A DNA stretch of 64,000 nt from assembly GCA_913048115.1 (NCBI GenBank), contig CAJWVI010000007.1, positions 1-64,000 of the forward strand, in the 5' to 3' direction. How positions within the stretch are numbered: the first letter of the stretch is position 1; the number at the start of each line of letters is the position of its first letter. Shown here one piece after another: positions 1,064 through 21,153 of the stretch. Under the pieces are notes generated by a model. It was not told the DNA's origin. It ran no database searches and worked only from the letters and a program-made list of their open reading frames with translations. The DNA is from an uncultured Flavobacteriaceae bacterium (GTDB lineage: Bacteria; Bacteroidota; Bacteroidia; Flavobacteriales; Flavobacteriaceae). The position numbers and the translations under genes are program-made.

Positions 1064-2563
1064 CTATTGATTAATTAAATGCCTGTTAGCCATTTTCTTA
1101 CCTAGTTCAACACCAAATTGGTCAAAACTATAGATGTTTAAAACAGCACCCTGCACAAATATTTTATGCTCGTACATAGCTATTAATGCCCCTAAACTCT
1201 CTGGCGATAGTGTGTCTAGCCTTAAAAGGTTTGATGGCTTGTTACCTTCAAAAACTTGATACGGATTAGCAACATCCTCACCATAGGTACCCATTAACAA
1301 TGCTTCTGTTTGTGCTAGACAATTAGCGGTTAAAATATCTTGATGGTTTTTTTTACCGTGTAAAGAATCTGTACACAAAATAAAATCTGTGGGTATTAAA
1401 AGTGTTCCTTGGTGTAATAATTGTATAAACGCATGCTGTGCATTGGTTCCAGTATTTCCCCAAACAACAGGTCCTGTTTGATAGGTAACTGGAGTTCCGT
1501 TTCTATCGACAGACTTACCATTGCTTTCCATAGAGGCTTGTTGCAGATAATCTACAAACTTAGACAGGTATTGGGTGTAAGGCAATACAGCTTCTGTTTC
1601 TGCTTTAAAAAAATTAGTGTACCAGATAGACAGCAGGCCCAAAAGAACAGGCATATTTTCTGAAAAAGGAGCTTCTTTAAAGTGAATATCCATTTGATGC
1701 GCACCTTTTAATAATTGCTCAAAATGAGCATATCCAATAGCACAACATGTTGAAAGACCAACAGCACTCCACAAAGAAAATCTTCCACCTACCCAATTCC
1801 ACATGGTAAATGTGTTTTGAGCAAGTATACCATATGCAGCAACAGCAGTAAGATTTGTAGATACAGCAACAAAATGTTTTTCTATTGCGTTTTCTCCAGC
1901 TTTTTGCACAAACCACTGCCTAACAGTATTGGCATTGGTAAGAGTTTCTTGAGTAGTAAAGGTTTTACTTACTATAATAAAAAGTGTTGTTTCTGGATCA
2001 AGTTTTTTTAGTGTTTCACAAACATGATCCCCATCTACGTTTGATATATAATGAACCGTAAGATGGTTTTTATAATAACTAAGTGCCTCAGTTACCATGG
2101 CAGGACCTAAATCACTACCTCCTATTCCTATATTAACAATATCTGTAATTGTTTTTCCTGTATACCCTTTATGAGTTCCTTGAATTATTGCCTCAGAGAA
2201 CTCCTTGATCTTAGATAAGGTAGCATTCACTTCAGGCTTCATGGCGTCAAAATCTCGCAACGCAGTATGAAGTACCTGTCTGGATTCTGTTTCATTGATA
2301 ACCTCACCATTAAATTGAGCCTTAATAGCTTCATCCAATTTTGTTTCTTCGGCTAGAGATTGTAACAAATCTAAAGTCTGTGAAGTTATTCTATTTTTTG
2401 AAAAATCTAATGAAACCAAATCTGTCTTAAGGCTCATACGCTCTTTTCTACCAGTTTCATTTGCAAATAAATCTTGCATTTTAACACCACGCATTGCTGC
2501 ATAATGCTCTTCTAGCTTAATCCAAGCTTTGGTAGTAGTAGGGTTTATTTTTGGGAATGCCAT
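1064..2563 (-). CDS. pgi: Glucose-6-phosphate isomerase, short C-terminus
   Basis: Interconverts glucose-6-phosphate and fructose-6-phosphate in the cytoplasm. Family hallmarks include VNIGIGGSDLGPAMVTEAL, the SKTFTTQET phosphate-binding loop, WVGGRFSLWSAVGL, the MESNGKSVDR stretch, and the C-terminal FDQFGVELGKK signature whose Lys is the conserved active-site Lys. The protein is 499 residues, whereas long-type bacterial enzymes have about 545. It stops about 9 residues after the signature Lys, so the usual C-terminal arm with an SSTNGLI motif is absent, and the loop before the VFEGN segment is also short. No frame downstream of the stop encodes the missing arm. It is the last gene of the pfkA-gap-kinase-pgi operon, 46 bases after the kinase. 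Confidence 0.95.
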   Translation of the reverse strand: MAFPKINPTTTKAWIKLEEHYAAMRGVKMQDLFANETGRKERMSLKTDLVSLDFSKNRITSQTLDLLQSLAEETKLDEAIKAQFNGEVINETESRQVLHTALRDFDAMKPEVNATLSKIKEFSEAIIQGTHKGYTGKTITDIVNIGIGGSDLGPAMVTEALSYYKNHLTVHYISNVDGDHVCETLKKLDPETTLFIIVSKTFTTQETLTNANTVRQWFVQKAGENAIEKHFVAVSTNLTAVAAYGILAQNTFTMWNWVGGRFSLWSAVGLSTCCAIGYAHFEQLLKGAHQMDIHFKEAPFSENMPVLLGLLSIWYTNFFKAETEAVLPYTQYLSKFVDYLQQASMESNGKSVDRNGTPVTYQTGPVVWGNTGTNAQHAFIQLLHQGTLLIPTDFILCTDSLHGKKNHQDILTANCLAQTEALLMGTYGEDVANPYQVFEGNKPSNLLRLDTLSPESLGALIAMYEHKIFVQGAVLNIYSFDQFGVELGKKMANRHLINQ

Positions 2564-2609
2564 GTTGATCTTTAACAGTTAATGCTTTTACAAGGTACTA
2601 AGTAGCAAG

Positions 2610-3488
2610 TTATTTTATTATATGATTCCTGTAATATTCAATAAGTCCATCAATAGGCCTACGTATAATAGTACCAAGGCTTAGATGGTATGGCTGCATA
2701 CAGTCTCTAATAATATCTTCACTGAAATGGGCTATGCTACCAATAAAATGGATAGGAACATGCTGAGCTTCTTTAAAACACAGCACCCTACATTCAATAA
2801 AATTGTTAATACCCTCACTAATTAATTTATAGAAATAACCATTGATTTCTATAGCATTAATAGGTCTTGAAGCTCCTGGATTAAATATAAATTCTGCAAA
2901 AGAAGCCAAATACATATTAGGGTTCTCTTGCTTATAAACATTATATTTTATAACATCTGGAGTAAGATCAAATCTTCTTGCAAACTCGGCTTTTAAAACC
3001 GCGGGCATTCTATTGTAAAAATAATCTCGTAGCAAACGTTTTCCGAAGTAATTACCACTGGCTTCATCCATTAAACTATAGCCTAACGAGACAGCACTTG
3101 GGTGTACTTTAGTACCATCGAAATAACTACTGTTAGATCCTGTACCTAAAATACATACAATACCTGGTTTTGTGGTTGCTGCATAAACAGCAGCGATGGT
3201 ATCTTCCTGAACCTCAACATTTGCTTTTGGAAAAATAGCCTCTAACACATTCTTAAGTAATAGGGAAGGCTTTTGTGTACCACAACCAGCGCCATAAAAA
3301 TCTAAGCGCGTCACTAGATCATGATAAGCTTGAAGCTCTGTATTGGCTAAAACCCTTTTAAGAAGCTCTTCTCCTTGCACAACTGCAGGATTTAAACCAA
3401 CGGTACGGGTTTTTAAAACCACAACACCTTTGTTGTCTAATAATATCCAGTCACATTTTGTGGAACCACCGTCTGTTATTAAAATCAT
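2610..3488 (-). CDS. BadF/BadG-type sugar kinase (N-acetylglucosamine kinase-like)
   Basis: A 292-residue ASKHA-fold kinase. The N-terminal phosphate-1 motif reads ILITDGGSTKCDW and the second phosphate-binding region reads GIVCILGTGSNSSYFDG, as in the BadF/BadG/BcrA/BcrD family that includes eukaryotic N-acetylglucosamine kinase. It lies 3 bases after gap and before pgi, on the same strand as the neighbouring beta-glucan locus. By position it could phosphorylate glucose or an amino sugar entering glycolysis. The substrate cannot be read from sequence. No other glucokinase gene is seen in the window. Confidence 0.8.
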   Translation of the reverse strand: MILITDGGSTKCDWILLDNKGVVVLKTRTVGLNPAVVQGEELLKRVLANTELQAYHDLVTRLDFYGAGCGTQKPSLLLKNVLEAIFPKANVEVQEDTIAAVYAATTKPGIVCILGTGSNSSYFDGTKVHPSAVSLGYSLMDEASGNYFGKRLLRDYFYNRMPAVLKAEFARRFDLTPDVIKYNVYKQENPNMYLASFAEFIFNPGASRPINAIEINGYFYKLISEGINNFIECRVLCFKEAQHVPIHFIGSIAHFSEDIIRDCMQPYHLSLGTIIRRPIDGLIEYYRNHIIK

Positions 3489-3491
3489 AAT

Positions 3492-4490
3492 TTATAGACT
3501 TGCTACATGTGTAGCTAATTCGATTAATTTTGCAGAATACCCATATTCATTGTCATACCATGCTATCAATTTGAAAAAATGATCATTAAGTGCGATACCT
3601 GCTCCTGCATCAAAGTTACACGCATATGTGCTACCTACAAAATCTTGAGAAACTACTTGGTCATCTGTATATGATACGACACCATTATAGGCTCCTTGTG
3701 AAGCTTCTTTAAAAAGTTTTTTAATATCTTCATAACTAGCCGCTTTTTTTGTTCTAACGGTTAAATCTACTACAGAGACATCCACGGTAGGCACTCTAAA
3801 GGCCATTCCAGTAAGTTTTCCAGAAAGGTTAGGAATTACTTTAGTTACAGCAACAGCTGCGCCGGTAGTAGATGGAATTATATTATTAACACCACTTCTA
3901 CCCATTCTATAATTTTTAGCAGAAGGTTGATCAACCGTTGCTTGTGTTGCTGTTAAAGCATGAACAGTAGTCATAAGCCCCTCTACAATCTCAAGATTAT
4001 CATCAATTATTTTTGCCAGTGGCGCTAAACAATTGGTAGTACAAGAAGCATTTGAAACAATAGTGTCTGTTGCTTTAACATCAAGGTGATTTACACCCAT
4101 TACAAACATTGGTGCTGTTTTAGAAGGTGCAGATATTACAACTTTTTTAGCTCCTGCTTTAATATGCGCATCAGCAGTGTTCAAGTCTGTAAAAATACCT
4201 GTACAGTCTAATACAATTCTAGCATCTACAGCATCCCATTTTAAAAGCTCTGGGTTTCTCTCTGCTGTAACTCTAACATGATGACCATCTACTACTAGAT
4301 TACCATTTTCAACAGCAACACTACCTGAGTATGTTCCATGAACTGAATCATATTTTAAAAGATACGCAAGATGATCTACATCTAATAAATCATTTACTGC
4401 TACTACTTCAATATTTGGATTTTGTGATGCGATTCTAAATGCGATTCGACCAATGCGGCCAAAACCGTTAATTGCAATTTTTATTTTCAT
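3492..4490 (-). CDS. gap: Type I glyceraldehyde-3-phosphate dehydrogenase
   Basis: Catalyses the phosphorylating oxidation of glyceraldehyde-3-phosphate. It has the N-terminal NAD-binding motif INGFGRIGR, an Asp after the second strand (VAVNDLLD) typical of NAD preference, and the active-site block [12 protein letters not shown]. The C-terminus has the conserved [10 protein letters not shown] chose the ATG at 4490, giving 332 residues. An in-frame GTG 15 bases upstream is possible, but the family begins at this Met. It lies 36 bases after pfkA and 3 bases before the sugar kinase, so one transcript is likely. Confidence 0.97.
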
Positions 4491-4526
4491 AGCTATTTGT
4501 TTCACATCAAAAGATGCTTTAATTTT

Positions 4527-5513
4527 TTATATTGATATTATATCTGCGACTCTAATTAAGTCTGTGTCTATTTTACTTGAACCTTCTAAAGATTTTTTAA
4601 AATCAACAGAAACTACTTTATTGTGAACAATGCCTATCATTACCTCACGTTCTCCTGCCAACAAAGCATCTATCGCACCTACGCCAAGTCTACTAGCTAG
4701 CACCCTATCATGACAACTTGGTGACCCTCCTCTTTGTATGTGGCCCAATACCGTTACTTTACATTCATAGTCTTCAAGGTTTTCTTGGATGTATTGTGCA
4801 AGTCCAAAAATATTTTTCCCTATTTGATCTCCTTCTGCTACAACAACAATACTACTTGATTTACCAGATTTTTTGCTTCGTTTTAAAGAAGCTAGCAATC
4901 GTTCTTTCCCCATGTTTAATTCTGGGATTAATATTTCTTCAGCACCCGCACCAATACCTGCGTTTAATGCTATATCTCCTGCATCACGACCCATCACTTC
5001 TATTAAAAATAAGCGACTGTGTGAAATTGCGGTATCTCTAATTTTATCAATGGCTTCAACTACAGTGTTTAAAGCTGTGTCGTAACCAATGGTAAAATCT
5101 GTACCATTAATATCGTTATCAATGGTGCCAGGAATACCAACAATTGGAAAGTTAAATTCTTGGTTAAAAACAATAGCACCTGAAAAAGTTCCATCTCCAC
5201 CAATAACAACAAGAGCATCAATATTTTGTTTCTTAAGATGTTTGTAGGCTTTTTCTCTTCCTTGTTTTGTTCTAAACTCTTTGGATCTAGCAGATTTCAA
5301 AAAAGTACCTCCTCGATTGATAATATTTTTTACAGAACGGGCATCCAAAGGTTCAAAAGCTCCTTCTATTAATCCTTCATATCCTCTAAAAACGCCTACA
5401 CATGCTATATTATGATATACACATGAACGAACTACAGCTCTTATAGCTGCATTCATTCCTGGAGCATCTCCCCCACTTGTTAGAACAGCTATTTTGTTTA
5501 TTGAATTTTCCAT
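4527..5513 (-). CDS. pfkA: ATP-dependent 6-phosphofructokinase
   Basis: Commits fructose-6-phosphate to glycolysis. Visible motifs are the N-terminal VLTSGGDAPGMNAAIR ATP-binding loop, VIGGDGTFSGA, the catalytic PGTIDNDINGTD block, and MGRDAGDIAL. The ATG at 5513 gives 328 residues, close to the bacterial norm of about 320. A GTG at 5555 would add 14 unrelated residues. It is the first gene of the glycolytic operon and lies 154 bases from the end of the glucan-utilisation genes, with a terminator-like hairpin between. Confidence 0.97.
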   Translation of the reverse strand: MENSINKIAVLTSGGDAPGMNAAIRAVVRSCVYHNIACVGVFRGYEGLIEGAFEPLDARSVKNIINRGGTFLKSARSKEFRTKQGREKAYKHLKKQNIDALVVIGGDGTFSGAIVFNQEFNFPIVGIPGTIDNDINGTDFTIGYDTALNTVVEAIDKIRDTAISHSRLFLIEVMGRDAGDIALNAGIGAGAEEILIPELNMGKERLLASLKRSKKSGKSSSIVVVAEGDQIGKNIFGLAQYIQENLEDYECKVTVLGHIQRGGSPSCHDRVLASRLGVGAIDALLAGEREVMIGIVHNKVVSVDFKKSLEGSSKIDTDLIRVADIISI

Positions 5514-5601
5514 AGCGGTAAATATAATATTATAGATTAAATAACGTACTAGCACCTAAATATTTGTGTTATAAATAACGTGCAAATTGATCCTGAAAAG
5601 C

Positions 5602-7982: not shown

Positions 7983-10289
7983 CTACAATGCAAATTCGGC
8001 TTTATTTTTAGTTGCTGAGTCTCCACCCACAAATACTTCAAAAGCACCTTTCTCTATAACCCACTGTTCTTGATTATTAAAAAAACCAAGTTCTTTGTCT
8101 GTTAGGGTGAATGTTATTTTTTTAGATTCGCCAGGTTGCAACATAAATTGCTTAAAACCTTTTAACTCTCTTACTGGCCTTGTAACACTTGCATACATAT
8201 CTCTAAGATATAACTGCGCTGTTTCTTTACCTTTTGTTTTTCCGGTGTTCGTTACTTTTACAGTAACAGTAACTTCTTTGTTTTTGGTATAGGTATTTAA
8301 AACAGTAAGATTTTCATAGCTAAAAGTAGTATAGCTCAATCCAAAACCAAAGGGATACAGTGGGGTGTTTTCTTCATCAGTATAGTGAGTCCAGAAAACT
8401 AAATCACTCCCAGGAATAGTTGGTCTACCTGTGTTTTTAAAATTATAGTACAAAGGTACTTGACCTACACTCCTGGGAAATGTCATAGGAAGCTTACCAC
8501 TAGGGTTATAATCACCATAGATTACTTGAGCCAGCGCATTTCCACTTTGAGTTCCTAGGTGCCACCCTTCTAAAATTGTTGGTATATGTTGAGCGGCCCA
8601 AGTAATGGTTAATGGTCTACCATTACTTAGCACCAAAATAATATTTTTATTTACAGCATATACAGCCTCTAGGAGTTGTTGTTGAACACCTGGCAAGCCT
8701 ATATTAGCTCTACTTCTTCCTTCACCACTTTGCAAACCATGTTCACCAAGAGCCATAATAACAACATCTGCATTTTTAGCAGTTAGAATAGCTTCATTAA
8801 AACCTGAAGTATCGGTAGTGTTTATAGTTAGCTCTGAGACAAACTCTGTCTTTCCAGTAACAACATCTGCTCCTTTTGCATAGGTAATTGTATTTTTTGA
8901 GTAAGCCTTTAAGCCTTCTAATAGAGATACTGCAGAATTATTCTCTGCGGCGAGCCTCCAATTACCAAGTGGGCTTGTTTTATCTGAAGCAAGTGCTCCA
9001 ATTACAGCAATCTTCTTACCTTTTTTTGATAATGGTAATAAGTTGCTTTGATTTTTTAAAAGTACAATAGACTTTTTGGCAACATCTAGTACTTCGTCTA
9101 AATTACTTTGACTACCAATAACAGATGCCTCTCGAGCTTCATCACAATATTTGTATGGGTCATCAAAAAGACCTAACTCAAATTTTACTTTAAGGATTCT
9201 ACCTGCTGCATCATGTATGAGCGCTTCATCTACTTTTCCTTGTTTAACAAGACTAGCCAATTCATTAACATACAGATGAGATTCCATGTCCATGTCTGAG
9301 CCTGCGTTTACGGCTAGCTCAGCTGCGTGGTTTCCATCTTTTGCGTATCCATGTGCAATCATTTCTGCAATAGAGCCCCAATCTGAGACAACAAACCCAT
9401 CAAAGTTCCATTTTTCTTTTAGTACCGTTCGCTGTAAATAAGTATCACCGGTTGCAGGAATTCCATTTAAATCATTAAATGAATTCATGAATGTTTTTAC
9501 TCCAGCATCTTTAGCTGCCTTAAATGGCGGCAAAATAATATTGTTTAATGTAGAGGTACCAACATCTGCGGTGTTGTAATCTCGTCCTGCTTCTGCAAAA
9601 CCGTAGGCTGCAAAATGTTTTGCACAGGCAGCTATGGTAGAAGGGCTTGATAAGTCTGTACCTTGAAAACCTTCCACACGCGCAATTGCTATTTTACTAC
9701 CAAGATAAGGATCTTCTCCAGCTCCCTCCATAACACGGCCCCATCTAGCATCTCTAGAGATGTCAACCATGGGTGCAAATGTCCAGTTAATTCCTGCAGC
9801 AGATGCCTCTAGAGCAGCTACTTGTGCAGAGTTTTTTATAGCCTCTAAATCCCAACTAGCAGCTTCTGCTATGGGTATTGGGCTTATAGTCTTATATCCA
9901 TGTATTACATCAAAACCAATGATAAGCGGTATGCCTAACCTGGATTCTTCTACAGCAATTTTTTGTACTGCTCGCACATCTTTAACACCAGTTACATTTA
10001 GCATAGAACCTACCCAACCCTTTTTTAGGTTATCCATTTTTTGGGCAGCTTCCCCACCCTTTGGTTCAGGTCCTGTAAAATCCCAAAAGCCATTGTATTG
10101 GTTCATTTGACCTATTTTTTCTTCTAAGGTCATTCGGTCTAATAGCATACTCACTTTTTGATCTGTAGAAAGTGTTTCACTTTTTAAGACCTCTGAGTTG
10201 AAGGCTAGTAAATCTGTTTCTTTTTCTTTACAAGAAAATAATTGTAAAACCGAAAAGAAAAATAGGATGTATAACGTTTTTGATTTCAT
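7983..10289 (-). CDS. bglX: GH3 beta-glucosidase lipoprotein
   Basis: A 768-residue glycoside hydrolase family 3 enzyme that should release glucose from beta-gluco-oligosaccharides. The lipoprotein signal ends at Cys20 (LQLFSC). The N-terminal barrel carries the KHFAAYG motif near residue 225 and the catalytic nucleophile Asp303 in the GFVVSDWGS block. The second domain has GEHGLQSGEGRSR, which probably supplies the acid/base Glu. A C-terminal fibronectin III-like domain covers the last about 90 residues. It follows the GH16 gene by 2 bases, so the endo- and exo-acting enzymes are co-expressed. The lipid anchor suggests a periplasmic or outer-membrane location. Confidence 0.94.
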   Translation of the reverse strand: MKSKTLYILFFFSVLQLFSCKEKETDLLAFNSEVLKSETLSTDQKVSMLLDRMTLEEKIGQMNQYNGFWDFTGPEPKGGEAAQKMDNLKKGWVGSMLNVTGVKDVRAVQKIAVEESRLGIPLIIGFDVIHGYKTISPIPIAEAASWDLEAIKNSAQVAALEASAAGINWTFAPMVDISRDARWGRVMEGAGEDPYLGSKIAIARVEGFQGTDLSSPSTIAACAKHFAAYGFAEAGRDYNTADVGTSTLNNIILPPFKAAKDAGVKTFMNSFNDLNGIPATGDTYLQRTVLKEKWNFDGFVVSDWGSIAEMIAHGYAKDGNHAAELAVNAGSDMDMESHLYVNELASLVKQGKVDEALIHDAAGRILKVKFELGLFDDPYKYCDEAREASVIGSQSNLDEVLDVAKKSIVLLKNQSNLLPLSKKGKKIAVIGALASDKTSPLGNWRLAAENNSAVSLLEGLKAYSKNTITYAKGADVVTGKTEFVSELTINTTDTSGFNEAILTAKNADVVIMALGEHGLQSGEGRSRANIGLPGVQQQLLEAVYAVNKNIILVLSNGRPLTITWAAQHIPTILEGWHLGTQSGNALAQVIYGDYNPSGKLPMTFPRSVGQVPLYYNFKNTGRPTIPGSDLVFWTHYTDEENTPLYPFGFGLSYTTFSYENLTVLNTYTKNKEVTVTVKVTNTGKTKGKETAQLYLRDMYASVTRPVRELKGFKQFMLQPGESKKITFTLTDKELGFFNNQEQWVIEKGAFEVFVGGDSATKNKAEFAL

Positions 10290-10291
10290 GC

Positions 10292-11926
10292 TTATTGGTA
10301 TACTCTTATGTAATCAACTTCCATACTAGATTGAGTAAAACCTGGGTCTATTTCACCACCAAAGTCGCCACCCATTGCAAAATTCATTATCAAAAAGAAA
10401 TCTTTATTGAAAGGAAAGTTTTGACTGTTAGGGAAAACATAAAATACGTTTCCATTTACTGCAAATCGAATGTCTGCCTCACTCCAGGTAACTTCATAGG
10501 TGTTGAAAGAATCTGAAGCGCCAGGAATTATAGTAGAACTAGTAATGGCATCTCCACCAGAATTTCCTGGAAAATGTAAGGAAGAATTAATGCGATCTTG
10601 CTCATTTCCTCGGTGTTCCATAATATCAATTTCACCAGCTCCTGGCCAAGGATTTGTTGGTAAATCTGCTCCAAGCATCCATAAAGCTGGCCAAGTACCA
10701 CCTCCTGTAGGAAGTTTTGCTCTTATTTCAACACGCCCGTATTGAAACTCAAAATTATCTTGTGTTCTAATACGTCCAGAGGTATAATTTGCACCAGAAA
10801 ATTCTTCGGCTATAGCGGTAATTACTAGGTTTCCATTTTCAACTTTTATATTCTCTGGGCGATCAGTGTAGTATTGGGATTCATTATTACCCCAACCACC
10901 GGCACCTAGATCGTGTTTCCAGTTTCCAGAACATACCACGCCATCAGTATCAAACTCATCTGCCCAAACTAAAACATCAAAGTTTCCAGAACCAGTATCT
11001 CCTGTTACAGATGTTTCACAATCAGTATCACCGCCGCCAGCACCGCCGCCGCCAGCACCATCTTGAGGAACAAATGTATGGTACCAAGCTAATTCATTTC
11101 CAGGTGGATCAAAAGGATCTTGTATACCACGAACTACTAATTTATCATTAGTTAATTCTAAGATAGTGTAGGACATAGCACCAGACCAGTATGATAACAT
11201 ACTGTTTGTAACTACCAATTCTTGTACACCATTGTTGTCAATAATAGAAAACAGTGTGTTTGTGGCAATTTGAGAATTAATATCTCTACACTCATCTGCA
11301 AACTCACCAGGATTAGCGTCTGGAAAAAATCTTTTTACTTCTGCCCAATTGATAAATGAAGCTTCTGTAGTTTCAAGAGTATAGGTAAGATCTGTATTAA
11401 AGGTTAATACATCATCATACATACAAGGGTTTAATTGATTAGGAGCTGCAGAGAAATAATTAGGAAAGTTCTCTAATGGATCTCCAACGCCAAAGTGACC
11501 AGCGTTTGATGAATCCCAAATCCAATTTTTTGAGCCATTTCCAGCAATCATTTCTAGTACAACAGGATCAATAAAAACATCAACATTTAGATCAAGAGTT
11601 ACAACAATACTACTAGAAACTCCTGCCCTACCAAAGGCAATAACTTGAACTTGTTGTTGGTATTCTCCGGGGGTCGTATATCTGTTTTTTGCCTCCAGAC
11701 CATTTCCAACAACAACAGGTTGTGCCCCGTCAGAAAAAATAACGTGAAAATTAATAGCATTTTCAGCAGAGGGTACTAGGGTAACGTTTCCAGAATTGTC
11801 ATCAGCAACACTTACAGTAACTTGCAAATTTGTAGGTGTAATTATATCTCCAAATTCAAAATCATCTTTTTGGCACCCTAAAACAACTGCTAGCAGTAAA
11901 ATACCTATTGTATATATATATTTCAT
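10292..11926 (-). CDS. GH16 endo-beta-1,3-glucanase (laminarinase-like) lipoprotein
   Basis: A 544-residue lipoprotein (lipobox VVLGC, Cys18). Residues about 32-115 form a PKD-like module related to that of the neighbouring PKD lipoprotein. Residues about 115-290 form a further beta-rich domain I cannot name. A Gly-rich linker (about 291-299) precedes the GH16 domain at about 315-544. The catalytic motif GEIDIMEHRG places the nucleophile at Glu432, the assisting Asp at 434 and the acid/base at Glu437. The single residue between Asp434's Ile and Glu437 gives the beta-bulge form usual in laminarinases. It should cleave laminarin internally at the cell surface. It sits 16 bases after the PKD lipoprotein gene. 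Confidence 0.92.
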   Translation of the reverse strand: MKYIYTIGILLLAVVLGCQKDDFEFGDIITPTNLQVTVSVADDNSGNVTLVPSAENAINFHVIFSDGAQPVVVGNGLEAKNRYTTPGEYQQQVQVIAFGRAGVSSSIVVTLDLNVDVFIDPVVLEMIAGNGSKNWIWDSSNAGHFGVGDPLENFPNYFSAAPNQLNPCMYDDVLTFNTDLTYTLETTEASFINWAEVKRFFPDANPGEFADECRDINSQIATNTLFSIIDNNGVQELVVTNSMLSYWSGAMSYTILELTNDKLVVRGIQDPFDPPGNELAWYHTFVPQDGAGGGGAGGGDTDCETSVTGDTGSGNFDVLVWADEFDTDGVVCSGNWKHDLGAGGWGNNESQYYTDRPENIKVENGNLVITAIAEEFSGANYTSGRIRTQDNFEFQYGRVEIRAKLPTGGGTWPALWMLGADLPTNPWPGAGEIDIMEHRGNEQDRINSSLHFPGNSGGDAITSSTIIPGASDSFNTYEVTWSEADIRFAVNGNVFYVFPNSQNFPFNKDFFLIMNFAMGGDFGGEIDPGFTQSSMEVDYIRVYQ

Positions 11927-11942: not shown

Positions 11943-13520
11943 TTAATTTGTTAATTCTATATCATCAAAATAGTATGTAGAACCATCACCTGCAAGGTCT
12001 ACAACAAATTCAAAGAATATTACAATTCTATTATAGTCTACACTAGAATCAATCAAGGCTTCAAAATCAAATACTAAAGTCTCCCAAGTATTAGCTACCG
12101 TAGTATTTACATCTAAAAATATTTGATTCCCTGTGTTTTGATTTTCTATGGCTACCCTAACCGGAATATTTGATTTTGGAGACCATGTTGTTATTGCAAT
12201 CTTTCCAGTATCAGAGAAGTCAACAGCCGTATCAACATCAATAAAAGTACCTGCATAAAACACAGAACCTTCTGTTTTGATTGTTTGCATAACAGTGTTA
12301 CTTGTATTCTCACCACTCATGTCTGGGTTCATCTCAATGGTAGAATCAGCACCTTCAAAACCAAGGAAAGTGTATGATGCTGCTGGAAGTTCAAAATCAA
12401 TAGGAAGTGCAATTCCATCTCCAGTGTCTATTCCGACAGATTGTTCTATATCATCAAAATAGAATGTAGTTCCTGTTCCAGGATTTCCAAAATCAAAGAA
12501 AATAACAACCTTAGAGTACTCTTGCTCTGTAAGCCCTGTAAAATCAAAGTTAACCTCTTCCCAAGCATTGGCTGTTGTAGTGATAGCATCAATTTCTGCG
12601 GAGATATTAGGGTCTGTACCGTTTTCTAGTTTTAACTTCACAGTAAGTCCAGCAGCTGGAGACCACGTTTTAATTGTAAACCCTTGAAAATCTGTAAAAT
12701 CTATTGGAGCTCCAAGTTCAAGAATGCTTCCTGCATATACCTCTGCTCCTGGCTCTTTGAAAAACTGGGCAACAGTTGCGCTAGTGTTTATACCAGATGG
12801 GTCAGGATTATCTATTAAAGAAGTGGTGGCACCTCCAAAACTTGTTGAGGCTGAGGCATAATCAATAGTTTGAGATTCAAAATCAATAGGAAGTGTTAAA
12901 GGGTTTTCTATAACTACTTCTGTGGTACTTTCTACAGTTGCAGTACTCCCTGCATACGCCACAACTCTCACACTATAGGTTCCTGTGTTTGAGTAGGTAT
13001 AGCCTACAGATTCTCCTTGCATAAATGGTGTGGGGGCTTGATTTGGATCTTCACCAAAGGTAACTTCATACCCGGTAGCTAAATCTGCCGTGGCAGAAAC
13101 CGAGATAGAAAAAGCATCTCCAGATATTGGCGTAATTGTTACTACTAAATTTTCTGGAGGTAAAAAAGAAACAACTACCTCTTGTAAAAGCGAGGCTGTT
13201 TCTCCATTAAGGTTGGTTCCTGTAAGAGTTGCAGTATAGACTCCTTCTTGATACACATGAGTAAAAACAGCTCCTGGTTGTACCATAGCTACTTCACTAT
13301 CATCTCCAAAATCTAAAGAGTATTCTACCACACTTTCACCACTAGGTGTTAAGGTAACACTACCTGTATTATCCTGTGTTATTTGAACTAACAAAGAAAG
13401 GTTTGACGGTACTTCTATACCGTCTGTAAATGCTGTATCCCTATCCTCTTGTGTGCATGATAGTACAACAATTAAAAACAATGCACTTAGGAGGAAGGGA
13501 TATATCTTAAATATTTTCAT
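11943..13520 (-). CDS. PKD-domain surface glycan-binding lipoprotein
   Basis: A lipoprotein with a lipobox near residue 22 (VVLSC), followed by two PKD-like domains (about 38-118 and 124-205) and two carbohydrate-binding-like modules (about 209-367 and 373-525). The modules match those of the T9SS protein at 6648. In the position after susD such proteins normally serve as outer-membrane surface glycan-binding proteins that hold the polysaccharide for SusCD. I chose the ATG at 13520, since the in-frame GTG 6 bases upstream adds little. No enzyme motif is visible. It lies 14 bases from susD. Confidence 0.85.
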   Translation of the reverse strand: MKIFKIYPFLLSALFLIVVLSCTQEDRDTAFTDGIEVPSNLSLLVQITQDNTGSVTLTPSGESVVEYSLDFGDDSEVAMVQPGAVFTHVYQEGVYTATLTGTNLNGETASLLQEVVVSFLPPENLVVTITPISGDAFSISVSATADLATGYEVTFGEDPNQAPTPFMQGESVGYTYSNTGTYSVRVVAYAGSTATVESTTEVVIENPLTLPIDFESQTIDYASASTSFGGATTSLIDNPDPSGINTSATVAQFFKEPGAEVYAGSILELGAPIDFTDFQGFTIKTWSPAAGLTVKLKLENGTDPNISAEIDAITTTANAWEEVNFDFTGLTEQEYSKVVIFFDFGNPGTGTTFYFDDIEQSVGIDTGDGIALPIDFELPAASYTFLGFEGADSTIEMNPDMSGENTSNTVMQTIKTEGSVFYAGTFIDVDTAVDFSDTGKIAITTWSPKSNIPVRVAIENQNTGNQIFLDVNTTVANTWETLVFDFEALIDSSVDYNRIVIFFEFVVDLAGDGSTYYFDDIELTN

Positions 13521-13534
13521 AATCACTTATTTTT

Positions 13535-15025
13535 TTAGTATCCTGGATTTTGTTGCCATCTATTCCCTGCTAGTTGTATTTCAACTAGTGGAATTGGAAA
13601 TAATTCATTTTTACCTGCACTGAAGCCTTCAATTTCTTGAGCAGCTCTACCTGTTCTAACCAAATCAAAGAAGTGGTGTCCTTCACCCACAAGCTCTAAT
13701 CTTCGTTCATTGTATATTGCTTGTGTTAATGCAGACCCTGAAACATTAACATCAATTAATGTTGTTCTTAGTCTTACTCTATTAAGGTATTGACGCGCTA
13801 ACACATCATTACCATCTCCTTGATTGTGAGCTTCTGCTGCCATTAACAAAACATCTGCAAAACGAATGGCTCTGTAGTTGTTTGGGTTGGTTAAGTTTTG
13901 ATCTCCAATATTAGTATCTCCAACTCTTGGAATGTACTTACGGTTAAAAAATCCTGTATGCTCAAAACCTTCTGTAAAGGTTATACCTGCACCATCATTA
14001 AAATCTGAATTTGCAGCTGCAAAAGCAACAATATCTAATATAGCAAACTCTCTACGTGCATCATCTTGGTCAAAGGCATCAAAAACCTCTTGGGTTGGAA
14101 TATTAAAACTAAAACCAGATTCAAACAAAGGGCCATTGAAATTACGAGGACCGTTAAAACCAATAGCAACGTTTCCTTCACTACACTGCAGACAACCAAA
14201 ACCGGCTCCTTCTACATCTGTATATTGTATTTCAAATACCGATTCAATATTGTTTTCATTGTCATTTTCAAACAAGGTGCTATAATCTTCAACCAAATCA
14301 TACACGCCGCTATTAATAACATCGTCCAACACTGGAGCTGCTAATGAATATTTATTTTGGTATAAGTATACCCTCCCTAACAGAGCTTGTGCAGCTCCTT
14401 TAGTAACTCTTCCTGTTTCAGCTTGCATTAGTGGTAAATTGTCTGCAGCAAACATAAGATCAATCTCTATTTGTGCATATACCTCTGCTGCTGGGGTTCT
14501 ATCAATAGTATTTTGATCACCAAATAATAAACGTTGATCAACTGCTAAGGGTACATCACCAAAGAATTTTACCAATTCAAAATAATAGTAGGCTCTTAGA
14601 AAAGTAGCCTGCCCTATTACATTTTCTTTATTTGGAAAGTCTGTCTTGTCTTTAAATTCAAGAATATAGTTGGCTCTATTAACACCAGCGTACATCCAGT
14701 TCCACACATCGCGCAATTGATCATTAATAGGGGTATGAATCATATCATCAATTTCTTGAATACCTGGAACATCTGTAGCACTCTCACCACCAGCTAATGT
14801 ATTGTCTGAAGCTATTTCTCCAAGCATTACATTAAGATAACTTGATTGCAACAAATCGTAGGCCCCAATAAGAGCACTTTGGTAATCTGCTTCAGAATTA
14901 AAAAAGTTTTCTGAATTTTCGTCTTCAGAACTAACATTGACAAAATCATCACTACAAGAAAATAGTAAAGTAGATGCTAAGCCAATAAATAGTGCTGCTT
15001 TGTATGTATATCTCATTATATTCAT
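13535..15025 (-). CDS. susD: SusD/RagB-family outer-membrane glycan-binding lipoprotein
   Basis: A 496-residue SusD-like protein with a lipoprotein signal ending in LLFSC, SusD-like N-terminal helices and TPR-like repeats. Family features include FLRAYYYFELVKFFGDVPL, RVTKGAAQALLGRVYLYQ and the C-terminal ERRLELVGEGHHFFDLVRTG stretch. It caps the SusC transporter and captures oligosaccharide at the cell surface. It starts 4 bases after the SusC stop, so translation is probably coupled. A second in-frame ATG lies 9 bases downstream of the chosen start. Substrate is inferred as beta-1,3-glucan from the GH16 and GH3 genes. Confidence 0.95.
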   Translation of the reverse strand: MNIMRYTYKAALFIGLASTLLFSCSDDFVNVSSEDENSENFFNSEADYQSALIGAYDLLQSSYLNVMLGEIASDNTLAGGESATDVPGIQEIDDMIHTPINDQLRDVWNWMYAGVNRANYILEFKDKTDFPNKENVIGQATFLRAYYYFELVKFFGDVPLAVDQRLLFGDQNTIDRTPAAEVYAQIEIDLMFAADNLPLMQAETGRVTKGAAQALLGRVYLYQNKYSLAAPVLDDVINSGVYDLVEDYSTLFENDNENNIESVFEIQYTDVEGAGFGCLQCSEGNVAIGFNGPRNFNGPLFESGFSFNIPTQEVFDAFDQDDARREFAILDIVAFAAANSDFNDGAGITFTEGFEHTGFFNRKYIPRVGDTNIGDQNLTNPNNYRAIRFADVLLMAAEAHNQGDGNDVLARQYLNRVRLRTTLIDVNVSGSALTQAIYNERRLELVGEGHHFFDLVRTGRAAQEIEGFSAGKNELFPIPLVEIQLAGNRWQQNPGY

Positions 15026-15029
15026 AGCA

Positions 15030-18000
15030 TTAAAATTTTAGTTGTAAACCAAATAAATATGTTTTAGGCGTTGGGTAAAAACCATAGTCAATACCTCCAC
15101 CAATAGGTTGTCCAGTTGATCCCGTTGGATCGTACCCGGTGTACTTTGTCAATGTCACTAAGTTACTTGCAGAAACATAGAAACGTAATTCATTAATTTT
15201 ATAATCTTCTAAGAAAGTGTCTGAAAGGGTGTATCCTACTTGTAAGTTTTGAAGTCTTACAAATGAACCATCCTCTACAAAAAAGTCTGAAAACTGATTG
15301 TTTTGAGTAGCTCCTGTTGTTACACGAGGTGTTGTGTTTGAGGTGCCTGCTCCATTCCATCTATCTAAGTATTGCGCAGAACGATTAGTAAGTGGTTGAA
15401 AACGCTCATAATTACGTACAATTTCATTTCCTACCGATGCAAACACATAGGTAAGAAAATCAAAGTTCTTATAAGAAAAACCTAAGTTTAAACCAAAGGT
15501 TGCATCAGCAATAGGATCTCCAAGGTAGGTTTTATCATCATTTGTAATTTCACCATCACCATTTACATCTACAAAACGTAAATCTCCTGGTTGAGCGTTA
15601 TTTTGCAGCGCATGAGCATCAACTTCTTCTTGTGTTTGAAAAACACCATCTGTTTGATATCCTCTAAAGTATCCTATAGGCATACCTGCTTCCATTCTTG
15701 CTGGCGCTTCTTGTCCAACTCCAAAGGATCCACCTGCTAGAAAACTAGATTCTCCGTTTACTTCTAATACTTCATTTTTAAGTGCTGTAGCATTAAAGCC
15801 AATGTTGTACTTAAAGTTTTCAGAAACTTTTTTTCTATAAGAAAGGCTTAATTCAAATCCTTTATTTTCTACAGAACCAGCATTAACAGTAGGAGCTCCG
15901 GAACCTGGCCCACTTCCACCTAAAATACCCGAGGTTTGAGGTGTAATTAATAAATCTTCGGTACGTCTTGTAAAATAGTCTAAAGATACATCCAGTTTAT
16001 TTTCAAAAAACTTAGCATCAAGACCTACATCAAATGTGTATTGCTTTTCCCAGCGTATCTCTGGATTTGACAACCCTCCAATGGCTGTACCAAAAATTAA
16101 CTCACCATCTATAACATAAGCACCCTCACCGTTTAATAAAGATTCAAAACCAAAATCTCTAATTCTATCATTTCCAAGGATACCGTATGATGTTCTAATT
16201 TTTAAGAAATTAAACATAGTACTTTCGTTTAAGAAACCTTCTTCAGAGACTATCCAACCAGCCGATGCCGATGGGAAATACCCAAATTTGTTTTCAGGAC
16301 CAAATTTTGTAGAACCATCTCTTCTTAGTACACCAGAAAATAAATATTTTCCTTTATAATCATATTGCAAACGTGCAAAGTAAGAAAGAAGTCTTGCATC
16401 AAAGGTGTTACCTCCATTTTGGAAATTATTTGTAACAATCTCTGCATCTTGAACCGTTACGTCAACCCCAGTGGTCCCTGGTACGTTAATACCCGTAAAA
16501 CCAGTAAACCTACCCGTTGTTTGAAACACAGAGGTTCCAAGGGTAACATCTACTTTGTGGGTATCATAAAAGGTATTGTTATAGTTTGCAAAAGCATCAA
16601 AAGTATAATCTCTAAATATGTTTGCTGACTGAGAGATAATATCTCTATCTGTATCTATGTTAAATACTTTACCAGAACCATAAAACACAGCTGGTGAATA
16701 ACTAAAACCAAAAACCTCTGCGTAGTTTGCTTGGATTCTAGATTCTATTTTAAAGTGCTCAAGAAACTTATAGTTAAGGCCAAAGTTTCCACTAAGCTTT
16801 CTTACTCGTGTATTGTTATTGGTATTATCCATCTGTGCGATAGGATTAATAACTTCATTGCCTAAACCTTCTGCCAATGAATAATTTCCAGACTCGTCTC
16901 TTACATTAAAGGTAGGAGCATTATTAATTGCGTTATATAATACAGAACCCAAAGAATTCTCTATAAGAGTTTTACGCTTTATCCCAGAAAAAAGAATAGA
17001 AGTATTAAGCTCAATGTTTTTTAGGATTCTTCTATCATGACTCAGTCTTGAGGTAAAACGATTGAAGTTGGCTTTATCACCACCCACAATACCATCTTGT
17101 GTAAGGTAAGAGGCACTAAAAGAAGTACGACCATTTTTTGTACCACCAGAAACAGATATATCTGCATTATATATAGGAGCAGATTGAAACACTTCGTCTT
17201 GCCAATCTGTACCTTGACCCAAGGTACCCACATCACCAAACAAAGGAGCTTCTCCATTATTAATTCTAGCTTCGTTTACAAGCCCAGCATATTCTGTTGC
17301 ATTAAGTACTGATATCTTTCGAGTAGTTTCTTGAATTCCGTAATATGTTTTAAAATCAAATTTAATGTCAGAATCATAAGAACCACTCTTTGTCGTTATT
17401 AAAATAACACCATTGGCTGCTCTTACCCCATAAATTCCGGCAGTAGCATCTTTTAATACATTAATAGATTCTATATCTGAGGGATTTATGACACTTAAAT
17501 CTTCAATAACATTACCATCTAGTAATATTAGTGGTCTACTATCACCATTGGTAGCAATACCACGAATTTTAATATCAAGACCACTACCTGGTGCACCAGA
17601 GCTTGGGCTGATTTGAACCCCAGCAACTTGACCTTGTAATGCCTGCTCTATTCTAGTGGGCTTTAAATCCTCAATGGTCTCGCTAGATACTACAGATACT
17701 GCACCCGTAATTTCTTTTTTACGCTGGGTACCATACCCCACGATTAAAACCTCCTCTAAAGAATCTACATCTGGCGTTAACGAGACAGTAATGTTCATTT
17801 GAGAGGTGATGCGTTTTTCTGAATTAACAAAACCTACGTATGATATGACTAAAATGTCATTCATGGTAACTTCGTCAATTTTGAAATTTCCATCAAAATC
17901 TGTGGTAACACCATTTTGAGTTCCTTTCACCAAAACGGTAGCGCCTAATAAAGGTATGTTTTGGTTTTGATCTACAACAGTTCCTGTTATTGAAAAGTTT

Positions 18001-18059
18001 TGAGCACTTGCTACAAAACAAAAACAAAATACAGCAACAAAAAGACTAATGTGTTTCAT
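15030..18059 (-). CDS. susC: SusC/RagA-family TonB-dependent oligosaccharide transporter
   Basis: A 1009-residue outer-membrane transporter. It has a signal peptide ending near ASAQ, an N-terminal carboxypeptidase-regulatory-like beta domain (about 22-100), a TonB-box and plug region beginning EEVLIVGYGTQRKKEITGAV, and a long beta barrel ending in the aromatic terminus FGLQLKF. The plug carries the SusC-type GAPGSGLDIKIRG segment. With SusD it imports oligosaccharides produced by the surface GH16. It is the first gene of the seven-gene locus and lies 232 bases downstream of the regulator on the same strand. Confidence 0.96.
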   Translation of the reverse strand: MKHISLFVAVFCFCFVASAQNFSITGTVVDQNQNIPLLGATVLVKGTQNGVTTDFDGNFKIDEVTMNDILVISYVGFVNSEKRITSQMNITVSLTPDVDSLEEVLIVGYGTQRKKEITGAVSVVSSETIEDLKPTRIEQALQGQVAGVQISPSSGAPGSGLDIKIRGIATNGDSRPLILLDGNVIEDLSVINPSDIESINVLKDATAGIYGVRAANGVILITTKSGSYDSDIKFDFKTYYGIQETTRKISVLNATEYAGLVNEARINNGEAPLFGDVGTLGQGTDWQDEVFQSAPIYNADISVSGGTKNGRTSFSASYLTQDGIVGGDKANFNRFTSRLSHDRRILKNIELNTSILFSGIKRKTLIENSLGSVLYNAINNAPTFNVRDESGNYSLAEGLGNEVINPIAQMDNTNNNTRVRKLSGNFGLNYKFLEHFKIESRIQANYAEVFGFSYSPAVFYGSGKVFNIDTDRDIISQSANIFRDYTFDAFANYNNTFYDTHKVDVTLGTSVFQTTGRFTGFTGINVPGTTGVDVTVQDAEIVTNNFQNGGNTFDARLLSYFARLQYDYKGKYLFSGVLRRDGSTKFGPENKFGYFPSASAGWIVSEEGFLNESTMFNFLKIRTSYGILGNDRIRDFGFESLLNGEGAYVIDGELIFGTAIGGLSNPEIRWEKQYTFDVGLDAKFFENKLDVSLDYFTRRTEDLLITPQTSGILGGSGPGSGAPTVNAGSVENKGFELSLSYRKKVSENFKYNIGFNATALKNEVLEVNGESSFLAGGSFGVGQEAPARMEAGMPIGYFRGYQTDGVFQTQEEVDAHALQNNAQPGDLRFVDVNGDGEITNDDKTYLGDPIADATFGLNLGFSYKNFDFLTYVFASVGNEIVRNYERFQPLTNRSAQYLDRWNGAGTSNTTPRVTTGATQNNQFSDFFVEDGSFVRLQNLQVGYTLSDTFLEDYKINELRFYVSASNLVTLTKYTGYDPTGSTGQPIGGGIDYGFYPTPKTYLFGLQLKF

Positions 18060-18137
18060 TCAATATAATTTTAGTACAATATAAGTATATGAAACTAACA
18101 TTTTATTGATATAACCCCATACAAATAGCATACATCA

Positions 18138-18249: not shown

Positions 18250-18294
18250 AATGTTGTGGTAATGTTGTAGTAGAATAAAGCCGTGTTGTAGCTA
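18250..18294. repeat. Helically phased direct repeats between regulator and susC
   Basis: Two tandem 11-mers, AATGTTGTGGT (18250-18260) and AATGTTGTAGT (18261-18271), differ at one base. A third partial copy, TGTTGTAGCTA, lies at 18284-18294 and runs into the stop codon of the regulator gene. The core TGTTGTR starts at 18252, 18263 and 18284, spacings of 11 and 21 bases, or one and two helical turns. The same core with an inverted mate stands directly upstream of the regulator gene. This is a candidate binding site for the regulator at 18292; binding is inference. Confidence 0.5.
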
Positions 18295-21102
18295 TTTTAA
18301 ATCTATAAAGTAATTATTAAGGTTAATCTCGTGGTCTAGATTAATCTTTTTACGCAATCTATATCGCTTTATCTCAACACTCCTATGTGAAATATTAAGC
18401 AAAGGAGCTATTTCCTTTGAAGAAAGATTAAGTCTTAAGTAAACACAAAATCTTAAATCATTAGCAGTAAGCTCAGGGTGCAAATCTTTTACTTTCTTAA
18501 AAAAGTCTTTGTCTGCATGATTAAAAGCTTCTTCAAAGAACTCCCAATCATCTTTATCATTCAATGACTTGTTTATTTTTTTAACAAGAGGTGCTACGGT
18601 TTCTATTTCAGAAAACTTTAAAAGCTCTGCTTTAAAATCATTAAGCACATTGTTTTTCTTAATCATACTCATGGTTGAGACAGCTAGTTCTCTATTTCTA
18701 GCTTCAATATCTTGTTGCAAGCTTTCATTTTTTAATTGTATGATTTCTTTCTGAGCCTCCAGTTCTTTTAATGCAATCTCCCTACTGCTTTTTTCTAAAA
18801 TGCGGTCTTTTTCCATTGTGTAATTTCTCTTATACCACGCGTTTACTAATATAAAAAAGAACACAATCCCTATTATGTATAACGTAATAGCGACAACTGA
18901 TAGATACCAGGGTGTTTCTATAGTAAAAGAATAGCTAGCCTGTCTTTTTAATATACTATTGTTAACACGCCCCTTGAGACGGAAGGTATAATCTCCATAG
19001 GGTAAATTCTCAAAGGAAATAGATGGGTTGGTACTCCATTCACTCCACATTGTATTTGTATCGCTCTCTAGGAGATATTGAAATTCTGAAACCTTATATG
19101 TATTGTATTGTGGAATAGAGTACTTAAACACGATACAGTCTTCAATAGCCTTTAAAACATGCTGCTGCTGCTGCTCTACTAGTAAAACGTCCTCCTTGGT
19201 TTGACCTACATAAATTGCATTTAAAAAAATCGAGTAATCTTCTTTAGCGGTATTATTCGTGTTGATAAGCAAATAACCGTTTGAAATACCAAAAAGATAT
19301 TCTTGAGCGTTAATTTTTGAAATATTCTCATAGCCCTTCTTCTGATTACGAAGTGATATCGGTATTTGCATGGTCGTAATGATATATGAATCCGTAAAAG
19401 GCTCTTTGGTAACATAGGTAATTCCATCTTGTGTAAAAACCCATAACATACCAGAAACATTGGTTTCTAACTTACCAGAGACATACGTTTTCTTAGAGTA
19501 AATAGCGCTAAGGCTTTGTTCTTTTACGAAGGTTTTGGCCGTAGTATCAAACACGAAAATTCCATCCTCATTTGCATATAAAAGACGATCGTAAAACTTT
19601 GCGATACTTGAATTAGAACCCTTTTTAACAGTAGTGTGTTTTTTTATATCGACAACTTCTTGATAGCCTGAGTCTAGCTCCAAGGAATAAACTCCTTTGT
19701 ATTCATGGCTTACCAAAATGCTATTATTAGGTAAAAACTCAAAATATTTTGATGAAATATCAAACCCTTTAATTTTATTTCTAAGTTTCCATACACCGTT
19801 TCTCTTTTCAAGAACATTTAATCCAGCATAGTTCCCTTGTAATAAAAGATTTTTATTTTCTCCAGGAATGGGTTTTATACTCCAGGTTCCCATAACGGTA
19901 GTAATTGGTGTTGCAAAAGCTCCCTGTATTTGGAAAGTACCTCTATTATGCCCACAGAATAATGTTTCGTTTATATTTTCAAGACACCAAACTTGCCCCT
20001 CAGTACCCCTAATTAGTTTAAAATCACCATCGCCAGTAAGGGGTTTGTAAAACAACCCTTGATTTGTACCCAAATACATTGTGTTATCAAAAATAATAGA
20101 AGCATAGGTTGTACCAAGTCGCCCACTTCTATCTGTATAGTTTAAATACGGAGAGTTTATATTAATACAATCTAAACCGTTATCTAATCCTACCCAAACG
20201 TTGTTGCTTTGATCTTCAAAGAGAGACAAGGCAGTGTTGTCTCCAAGACCGTTAATTTGATTGATGGTAAAAAGTTGTGATCCATCTCCAGAGAGTTTTA
20301 TGATACCGTTTCCAATGGTGCCAAGTAATATAGTTCCATCTTTTAAGGCTAATGCTGTGTAAATACTGGCATCTTCAATTTCTTTGTCTACAGAAACACC
20401 CCAAGGACTAACCCCTTGGCTATCAATTAAAAATAAGCCGCTATTTTGTGTAACCGCTAGTGTTTTATTGCCTATTGATAAAATTTGTACAATGATGTCA
20501 TTGTTAAAATGATCTGCTGTAAAAACGTTCTTTTTAGTTCCGTTTTGAATGGTAAATAGGCCCTGATCAATTACATAAAAGTATATTTCTTGCTCTACTT
20601 TAAACAATTTATGTATTGTCTTCTCAGACTCAATTACCTTAATGGTACTATCTTCTGTATTGAATATATATATCCTACTTAAAGATTGAAACAAAATCCA
20701 TTTATTGTACGGGGTAATACTCCAAAACTGTTCGTCTTCGGCAATATCTATGCCTAGTGTTGTGGTTAAAGAACTGTATTGTTGTAGTCCTTTAGGACCA
20801 ACTTCCCAATAACCAAAATCCATATAACTACCACTGTACACTTTATCGTCTACAGCACAAACAGAGCGAATAATTGTTTTATTAGGTGAAGGGTATAACT
20901 TCCAGTAGGCGCCATTATACTCTAATAACCCCTCATTATTAGCAACATAGATAAATTTATTGTTAGACTCTGTGATGGACCAGTTTTGAGTTCCAGCATT
21001 GTATAGCTCTGAAGGATAGTTTGTAATTGGAGGTAATTCTTGAGAGCTACTTGTTGTACAGGTAAAACAAAAAAGTAAAAAAAGGATAAAAGGTATACGC
21101 AT
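18292..21102 (-). CDS. Membrane-spanning propeller/Y_Y_Y regulator with LuxR-type HTH
   Basis: A 936-residue one-component regulator. A signal sequence (about 1-20) precedes a long extracytoplasmic two-component-regulator propeller region, with repeats such as LSLFEDQSNNVWVGLDNGL, and a Y_Y_Y-type domain at about 650-725. One membrane segment (about 733-755) leads to a coiled coil (about 770-815) and a C-terminal LuxR-like helix-turn-helix (about 880-930) containing LSSKEIAPLLNISHRSVEIKRYRLRKK. No histidine kinase or receiver domain is present, so ligand sensing in the periplasm should act directly on DNA binding. It is encoded just upstream of susC on the same strand and is the probable regulator of the glucan genes. 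Confidence 0.88.
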   Translation of the reverse strand: MRIPFILFLLFCFTCTTSSSQELPPITNYPSELYNAGTQNWSITESNNKFIYVANNEGLLEYNGAYWKLYPSPNKTIIRSVCAVDDKVYSGSYMDFGYWEVGPKGLQQYSSLTTTLGIDIAEDEQFWSITPYNKWILFQSLSRIYIFNTEDSTIKVIESEKTIHKLFKVEQEIYFYVIDQGLFTIQNGTKKNVFTADHFNNDIIVQILSIGNKTLAVTQNSGLFLIDSQGVSPWGVSVDKEIEDASIYTALALKDGTILLGTIGNGIIKLSGDGSQLFTINQINGLGDNTALSLFEDQSNNVWVGLDNGLDCININSPYLNYTDRSGRLGTTYASIIFDNTMYLGTNQGLFYKPLTGDGDFKLIRGTEGQVWCLENINETLFCGHNRGTFQIQGAFATPITTVMGTWSIKPIPGENKNLLLQGNYAGLNVLEKRNGVWKLRNKIKGFDISSKYFEFLPNNSILVSHEYKGVYSLELDSGYQEVVDIKKHTTVKKGSNSSIAKFYDRLLYANEDGIFVFDTTAKTFVKEQSLSAIYSKKTYVSGKLETNVSGMLWVFTQDGITYVTKEPFTDSYIITTMQIPISLRNQKKGYENISKINAQEYLFGISNGYLLINTNNTAKEDYSIFLNAIYVGQTKEDVLLVEQQQQHVLKAIEDCIVFKYSIPQYNTYKVSEFQYLLESDTNTMWSEWSTNPSISFENLPYGDYTFRLKGRVNNSILKRQASYSFTIETPWYLSVVAITLYIIGIVFFFILVNAWYKRNYTMEKDRILEKSSREIALKELEAQKEIIQLKNESLQQDIEARNRELAVSTMSMIKKNNVLNDFKAELLKFSEIETVAPLVKKINKSLNDKDDWEFFEEAFNHADKDFFKKVKDLHPELTANDLRFCVYLRLNLSSKEIAPLLNISHRSVEIKRYRLRKKINLDHEINLNNYFIDLK

Positions 21103-21153
21103 TATGTTGTACTATTTATTTGATAAAAATACCAAAATTAATAGTACAACATA
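21103..21153. promoter_or_regulatory. Perfect 14-bp inverted repeat at the regulator start
   Basis: The arms TATGTTGTACTATT (21103-21116) and AATAGTACAACATA (21140-21153) are exact inverted copies separated by 23 bases. The left arm abuts the ATG of the regulator. The spacer holds a minus-strand TAATTTTG (21140-21133), a match to the -7 consensus TAnnTTTG, with no clear -33 box. The arms share TGTTGTA with the direct repeats at 18250. An autoregulatory operator or a leader hairpin are both possible. Confidence 0.55.

Follow-up and report, generated by a model that had tools for sequence, protein, structure and literature searches.

Conserved half-sites beside a SusR-like regulator as the probable operator of a laminarin-type locus in an uncultured Flavobacteriaceae bacterium

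Short repeats lie on both sides of a one-component regulator gene in a 64,000-nucleotide stretch of DNA from an uncultured Flavobacteriaceae bacterium (the whole stretch is called the window here). We propose that these repeats are very probably the operator of the adjacent regulator, a putative sugar-sensing, membrane-anchored protein that would control susC from a distant site and, within this clade, itself as well. The sites, their positions, their conservation, their spacing classes and the association between a helix residue and one base were established by computation; from the sequence we infer binding, ligand, looping, promoter positions and the sign of regulation.

The regulator is encoded on the reverse strand (18292..21102; ATG at 21100-21102) and has 936 amino acids. 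Its layout comprises an N-terminal signal, a periplasmic sensor with a Y_Y_Y domain (residues 686-728), a hydrophobic segment (approximately 732-757), a coiled coil and a C-terminal helix-turn-helix (HTH) domain of the LuxR fold, the signal, membrane segment and coiled coil having been read by eye in the translation. A Pfam search (E <= 0.001) returned two domains only, each just below its cut-off: Y_Y_Y (25.8 bits against 26.6) and GerE (19.7 bits against 23.5). Neither a kinase nor a receiver domain was found at this threshold. With a periplasmic sensor containing Y_Y_Y, one membrane segment, a C-terminal HTH and neither kinase nor receiver, the protein has the layout of SusR-like one-component regulators of polysaccharide utilization loci (PULs). 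It is also encoded beside a susC/susD pair, as are the regulators at three paralogous loci of another genome. An AlphaFold2 model of the HTH (pLDDT, 83; pTM, 0.70) was compared with known structures; nearly all of the 50 matches listed were of the LuxR/NarL type, with DosR giving the best Z score among them (8.1) and the NarL-DNA complex 1je8 a Z score of 6.9, while Foldseek E values were weak throughout (at least 0.08). Profile comparison matched the HTH to EsrB with an E value of 2e-5. By model and profile comparison, the domain is thus predicted to adopt the four-helix fold of the LuxR/NarL type. A second related HTH region is present in the same genome (L063, C1:110763-111239; 27% identity over residues 776-929), in an open frame of 649 amino acids. 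A genome of the same genus (G076) has no match to the regulator at an E value of 1e-50, so the locus may be variably present.

The genes downstream of the regulator all run in one direction on the reverse strand with small gaps. They encode a SusC-like TonB-dependent receptor, the first gene of the target operon (15030..18059), a SusD-like protein (13535..15025), a PKD-domain protein that is probably a surface glycan-binding protein (11943..13526), a GH16 family protein that is probably a beta-glucanase (10292..11926) and a GH3 beta-glucosidase (7983..10289). This gene content suggests a laminarin-type (beta-glucan) PUL. Just downstream of the PUL, and in the same direction, positions 1064-5555 encode glucose-6-phosphate isomerase, a BadF-like protein, GAPDH and phosphofructokinase; the BadF ATPase family match is below cut-off, and the protein is a possible glucokinase. 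Since these glycolysis genes adjoin the PUL in the same direction, uptake and glycolysis may be linked.

The interval between the regulator stop and the susC start is 232 bases long. On the forward strand, TGTTGTGG starts at 18252 and TGTTGTAG at 18263 and again at 18284, with starts 11 and 21 bases apart, and the 11-mers at 18250-18260 and 18261-18271 are identical at 10 of 11 positions; the coordinates and spacings of the tandem and its third half-copy given in the earlier sequence-only reading were borne out. Read on the reverse strand, these are three half-sites in the same direction: A (CTACAACA; 18284..18291), directly after the regulator stop codon and 21 bases before B; B (CTACAACA; 18263..18270); and C (CCACAACA; 18252..18259), 11 bases after B. 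An equally good direct 11-mer repeat (lags of 8 to 30) was found in 237 of 1,000 shuffles of the 232-bp region. The tandem is therefore not significant from the window alone, and conservation had to decide. The short core also recurs elsewhere, as previously noted: the window contains 32 copies of TGTTGTA, where shuffles lead one to expect 15, and most of them lie outside the two regions studied. In the 1.99-Mb assembly of the same organism (90% complete), the tandem 20-mer has one exact match and two more at three mismatches, with no other target within two mismatches.

Conservation was assessed in relatives of the regulator locus. Among 57 loci fetched, six lacked the gene end or were not entered, leaving 52 regions to be scanned (51 loci and the window). 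Of these, 46 scored above 13.5 and six below (L006, L007, L021, L030, L032, and L054). L039, whose site lies elsewhere, was left out of training, so that the tandem (B-C) profile was trained on 45 sequences; the profile of a further half-site, D, described below, was trained on 43. Both were applied to a test set of 89 further loci from another collection, with 890 shuffles as the null. Of the 89 test loci, 75 had a tandem score higher than that of any of the 890 shuffles, and 74 had a D score higher than that of any shuffle. Removing one test locus identical to a training sequence left 74/88 and 73/88, respectively, and among the 86 test loci less than 60% identical to training sequences the counts were 72 and 71. 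At this strictest threshold, the tandem was missed in 14 of 89 loci and D in 15; in 11 of the 14 tandem misses, the best match still lay 22 to 24 bases after the regulator stop.

The position of the array is likewise fixed. In 108 of 120 loci, the start of B falls 20 to 26 bases past the regulator stop; a half-site core at the offset of site A, precisely 21 bases ahead of B, is present in 77 of 126 orthologs, with counts of 0 to 5 at neighboring offsets. For the ortholog counts in the comparison of helix and half-site below, L064 (a duplicate), L058 and L062 (copies of the window), and L115 and L133 (helix pattern unmatched) were dropped, and nine loci had no usable C-terminal match; of the 139 orthologs kept, nine had no tandem above a score of 10 and 13 had no D. 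The susC-side consensus is roughly CCNNWACATTACCNNWACAT, and the half-site words vary by lineage (CTACAACA, CCTATACA, CCTCAACA, CCACAACA, or CCACTACA). AA at positions 4 and 5 of B and C is avoided (4 seen, 50 expected). In a phylum-wide set of 32 downstream stretches, taken irrespective of susC presence, 25 could be read by the helix pattern and seven could not; inspection by eye revealed a related tandem in L179, L180, L181, and L186 and, less clearly, in L183, and no related tandem in the other 20 stretches.

The sequence-only reading had not described D, the fourth half-site, which lies at the putative susC promoter. A promoter-proximal element on the reverse strand (18115..18135) contains D as an inverted half-site (CCCATACA on the forward strand; 18116-18123), 135 bases after B. 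In orthologs, this block nearer susC typically reads ATGTATGTTTTTTGTATAGGT, and its right half is the inverted half-site. D uses the half-site letters of B and C and shares their avoidance of AA at positions 4 and 5 (3 seen, 14 expected). The B-to-D distance falls into four classes (110 to 116, 120 to 126, 131 to 138, and 142 to 148 bp) in 113 of 120 loci, with two loci in the gaps between classes and five outside. Circular analysis of this distance at a period of 11.4 gave a resultant of 0.72 (0.77 within 76 loci of the test set), whereas none of 2,000 jittered sets exceeded 0.28. P values here assume more independence than related species, with their common spacings and sites, provide, but the four discrete classes, about 11 bp apart, remain. 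Locus-by-locus covariation was detected neither between B and C (P value, 0.41) nor between D and B/C (P values, 0.16 for 44 rows and 0.15 for 126 rows), which counts against the reading of D as a half-site.

A further link between the regulator and the half-sites comes from the recognition helix, HRSVEIKRYRLRKK in the window protein (residues 906-919; 18346..18387, reverse strand), in which the residue at position h5, Ile 911 (codon 18370-18372, reverse strand), tracks base 5 of the half-site. In NarL, this helix position contacts bases. The helix is nearly constant among orthologs (NISxRSVE[V/I]KRYR), and seven orthologs carry T in place of V or I at h5. Base 5 of B is G in five of these seven, compared with 0 of 123 orthologs with V or I; two of the seven have no G in either B or C. 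D carries G in three of six T orthologs (L109, L140, and L141; CCTCGATA), compared with 1 of 120 others.

The same association was seen in a group of paralogs with about 31% identity to the window protein, most of which have helices of the GVETHRYR type. None of 20 paralogs passed the ortholog tandem profile. They carry TACGTCA in tandem, 11 bp apart; the pattern [TC]AC[AG]TCA occurs in tandem in 16 of 20 and in none of 200 shuffled sets. In 14 of 20, another direct copy follows 66 bp after the first, and 15 of 20 have an exact inverted copy close to the promoter. All 16 paralogs with T at h5 have TACGTCA; where h5 is I or L, in members and cousins of the group, the word is TACATCA or CACATCA. 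The promoter-side inverted copy follows suit, being exactly TGACGTA in 12 of the 16 with T and TGATGTA in three of the four with I or L. A tree was built without the HTH from 36 V/I orthologs (4 chosen and 32 random), all seven T orthologs, the 20 paralogs and five more sequences. Across its rows, G accompanies T in 21 of 23 cases and V, I, or L in 0 of 45, and T at h5 arose twice. Two independent switches are too few for a tree-based significance test, and both point the same way. A second rule, in which K or H at the next helix position sets half-site base 6, was dropped, as L172 (S..H) and L183 (G..R) break it in its simple form.

In one genome (G070), three such regulators each precede a SusC/SusD locus of their own, and the half-sites differ among the three; the loci contain PKD and GH16 proteins, a GDPD-GH16 protein with a sulfatase and GH3, and two PF10091 enzymes, respectively. 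The regulator of one of these (L219), a paralog with a SVETKRYR helix, precedes a PUL in which a GDPD-GH16 fusion is encoded together with GH3, a sulfatase and an endonuclease/phosphatase-type protein; a substituted beta-glucan is a possible substrate. We put forward tentatively, as a generalization that may or may not hold, an operator grammar common to Bacteroidota one-component PUL regulators, in which in-phase half-sites after the stop are combined with an inverted promoter half-site at turn-like distances, and in which V/I/L or T in the helix would set the base to A/T or G and so insulate duplicated PULs from one another. For the susC side of the window, the earlier reading of the repeats as a site of the adjacent regulator has strong support from conservation, fixed position and helix tracking. 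The LuxR-type fold of the HTH is predicted by model and profile, with the GerE score (19.7) short of its cut-off (23.5).

How such an array might act on susC can be outlined. The periplasmic sensor presumably senses a sugar ligand, and the cytoplasmic LuxR-fold HTH would bind half-sites of 8 bp that conform to CCNNWACA (CTACAACA and CCACAACA in the window). A, B, and C are spaced by roughly one and two helical turns, which puts them on one face of the DNA. Most probably, a sugar-sensing dimer or larger assembly on A-B-C would act on the susC promoter and, through a loop, would reach or neighbor D, about 12 to 13 turns further. The spacing, held in steps of about one turn, is compatible with a DNA loop or with some other stereospecific contact controlling susC.

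An alternative, which we regard as rather unlikely, is that D is solely the core promoter (the Bacteroidota -7 region) and that the regulator on A-B-C alone touches RNA polymerase, giving rise to the spacing classes. The Bacteroidota -7 consensus is TAnnTTTG, and the conserved TTTG in D resembles this box; the absence of locus-by-locus covariation between D and B/C also agrees with a promoter role. However, D varies with the half-site vocabulary and with an internal dependency, the switch to G is found in D of three of six T orthologs, and the CG/CA switch is followed in the paralogs. A sigma-70 pattern scan picked out no promoter in either intergenic region and gave fewer matches than shuffles (7 compared with 15.6), Bacteroidota promoters being different. 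Slightly less probable still is a repression loop like that of AraC, in which the regulator without sugar would bridge B/C and D, closing the susC promoter, and with sugar would free D. The turn-like long-range spacing and the inverted promoter half-site fit this arrangement as well. It is at odds with the usual arrangement of AraC-type activators, whose tandem adjoins the promoter. According to the available part of one report (PMC3878776), SusR, as the functional analogue, acts as an activator of its operons, which also counts against such a loop. We favor an operator at which the regulator on A-B-C would act on susC together with D.

At the regulator start, a perfect 14-bp inverted repeat was confirmed where it had been described: one arm, TATGTTGTACTATT (21103..21116, forward strand), abuts the ATG, and its reverse complement holds TACAACA; the second arm, the complement of TATGTTGTACTATT, lies at 21140..21153 on the reverse strand. 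The arms contain TGTTGTACTA and its complement and are 23 bp apart. None of 1,000 first-order shuffles of the 151-bp upstream region reached a 14-bp arm (largest, 11), and the repeat occurs at a single place in the organism's assembly at up to three mismatches. At least both arm cores are kept in the window and in L001, L002, L003, L005, and L052 (71 to 77% identity to the window protein); the outer TA of the arms is not kept in orthologs, and the repeat is not kept in L004, the next ortholog at 54% identity. In seven of 10 Winogradskyella-titled loci (L009 to L013, L041, and L042), the arrangement is instead a forward half-site at about -104 with an inverted one at about -47. A CC-rich half-site profile found at least one site in the upstream regions of 25% of 100 loci (10% in shuffles) and at least two in 13% (1% in shuffles), and missed the arms of the window clade, which read GTACAACA. 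The sequence-only reading had proposed aligning orthologous loci and had expected autoregulation from the shared core; the susC-side motif proved to be conserved across loci, and the regulator-side repeat is limited to the window and its five closest orthologs. Within this clade, two more half-sites would flank the putative promoter of the regulator as an inverted repeat, an arrangement compatible with autoregulation, more likely as repression.

The repeat could also act in RNA, as a 5' leader hairpin abutting the start codon and limiting translation of the regulator, which we consider improbable. The window strand folds at -21.3 kcal/mol, compared with a shuffle mean of -5.3, for each of the six sequences at least 196 of 200 shuffles fold less well, and the inner stem retains G-U, G-C, or A-U pairs in most sequences. 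The hairpin is paired in 83% of cells, compared with 35 to 55% when slid by 1 to 3 columns, a difference that is partly expected, as the structure was derived from the window. Yet the percentage paired and the covariation are at the level of shuffles (328 and 186 of 500 as high, respectively), and the only Rfam match at an E value of 1 or less was a sub-threshold microRNA model. Moreover, if the core promoter sits between the arms, as we think, the transcript would carry one arm only. The invariant outer pairs fall in the half-site core, and pairs outside the core often break. Because the invariant pairs coincide with the half-site core and covariation does not exceed shuffles, DNA half-sites flanking a promoter are favored over the hairpin. 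That another factor reads the repeats, for example a Crp-like regulator, is very improbable. The Bacteroides Crp-like motif given in the available part of PMC3878776, TATGTTnTAnAACATA, has TATGTT in common with the arm, but that motif is contiguous and the arms here are 23 bp apart with the outer TA not kept in orthologs, so that a Crp-like site was rejected on spacing. The susC-side sites, moreover, adjoin the regulator studied here and vary with its helix.

Where the operator is conserved and its half-sites can be read, a regulator can be paired with its locus from sequence. The helix code, if true, predicts the outcome of a one-residue swap: I911T would move the preference from CCACAACA to CCACGACA, with base 5 changing from A to G. 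A mechanism acting from a distant operator likewise becomes testable through half-turn insertions. Since much of the carbon available in the ocean comes as laminarin, how the genes for its uptake are switched has ecological interest.

We recognized no description of this operator in a literature search covering the titles and the beginnings of abstracts of the papers listed, with few subscription papers; the sources included a Vibrio XylR-type regulator (PMC12125979, available in part). NarL/FixJ-type proteins with a LuxR HTH (NarL, DosR, LiaR, VpsT, and RcsB) have a similar HTH fold by model comparison. In the window regulator no receiver was detected, the HTH is fused to a periplasmic sensor, and the associated direct repeats, 11 bp apart, consist of the half-site CCNNWACA. 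Hybrid two-component systems (HTCS) of Bacteroides carry a histidine kinase and a receiver, neither of which was found in the window regulator. Partially available sources describe an AraC-type HTH for HTCS, unlike that of the window, and direct-repeat sites that are on average 21 bp apart, as are A and B here. The Escherichia coli AraC operator combines tandem half-sites with a distant half-site, spaced in helical turns, and forms a DNA loop. The window array likewise has a tandem and a distant half-site at helical-turn spacing; it differs in HTH family, and its tandem is the distal element of a putative loop.

The closest comparison is with the SusR-like regulons of Bacteroides, and it rests on described architecture and spacings. 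In the available part of their report, Ravcheev et al. (2013; PMC3878776) predicted these regulons with direct-repeat motifs having long spacers (67 or 77 bp) and stated that SusR still lacked characterized DNA sites. The window does not have two direct sites 67 or 77 bp apart; its direct spacings are 11 and 21 bp, with the inverted site at 135 bp. Across orthologs, the 11-bp tandem is joined by a half-site at -21 and an inverted site, mostly 110 to 148 bp away, unlike the Bacteroides arrangement. In paralogs such as L155, the third direct TACGTCA, 66 bp after the first, is close to the 67 bp of the Bacteroides motifs. As far as the available part of that description goes, both systems share a large membrane-type one-component PUL regulator beside susC/susD, and in both the direct-repeat operator parts lie on one face of the DNA, with a long spacing that differs by about one turn.
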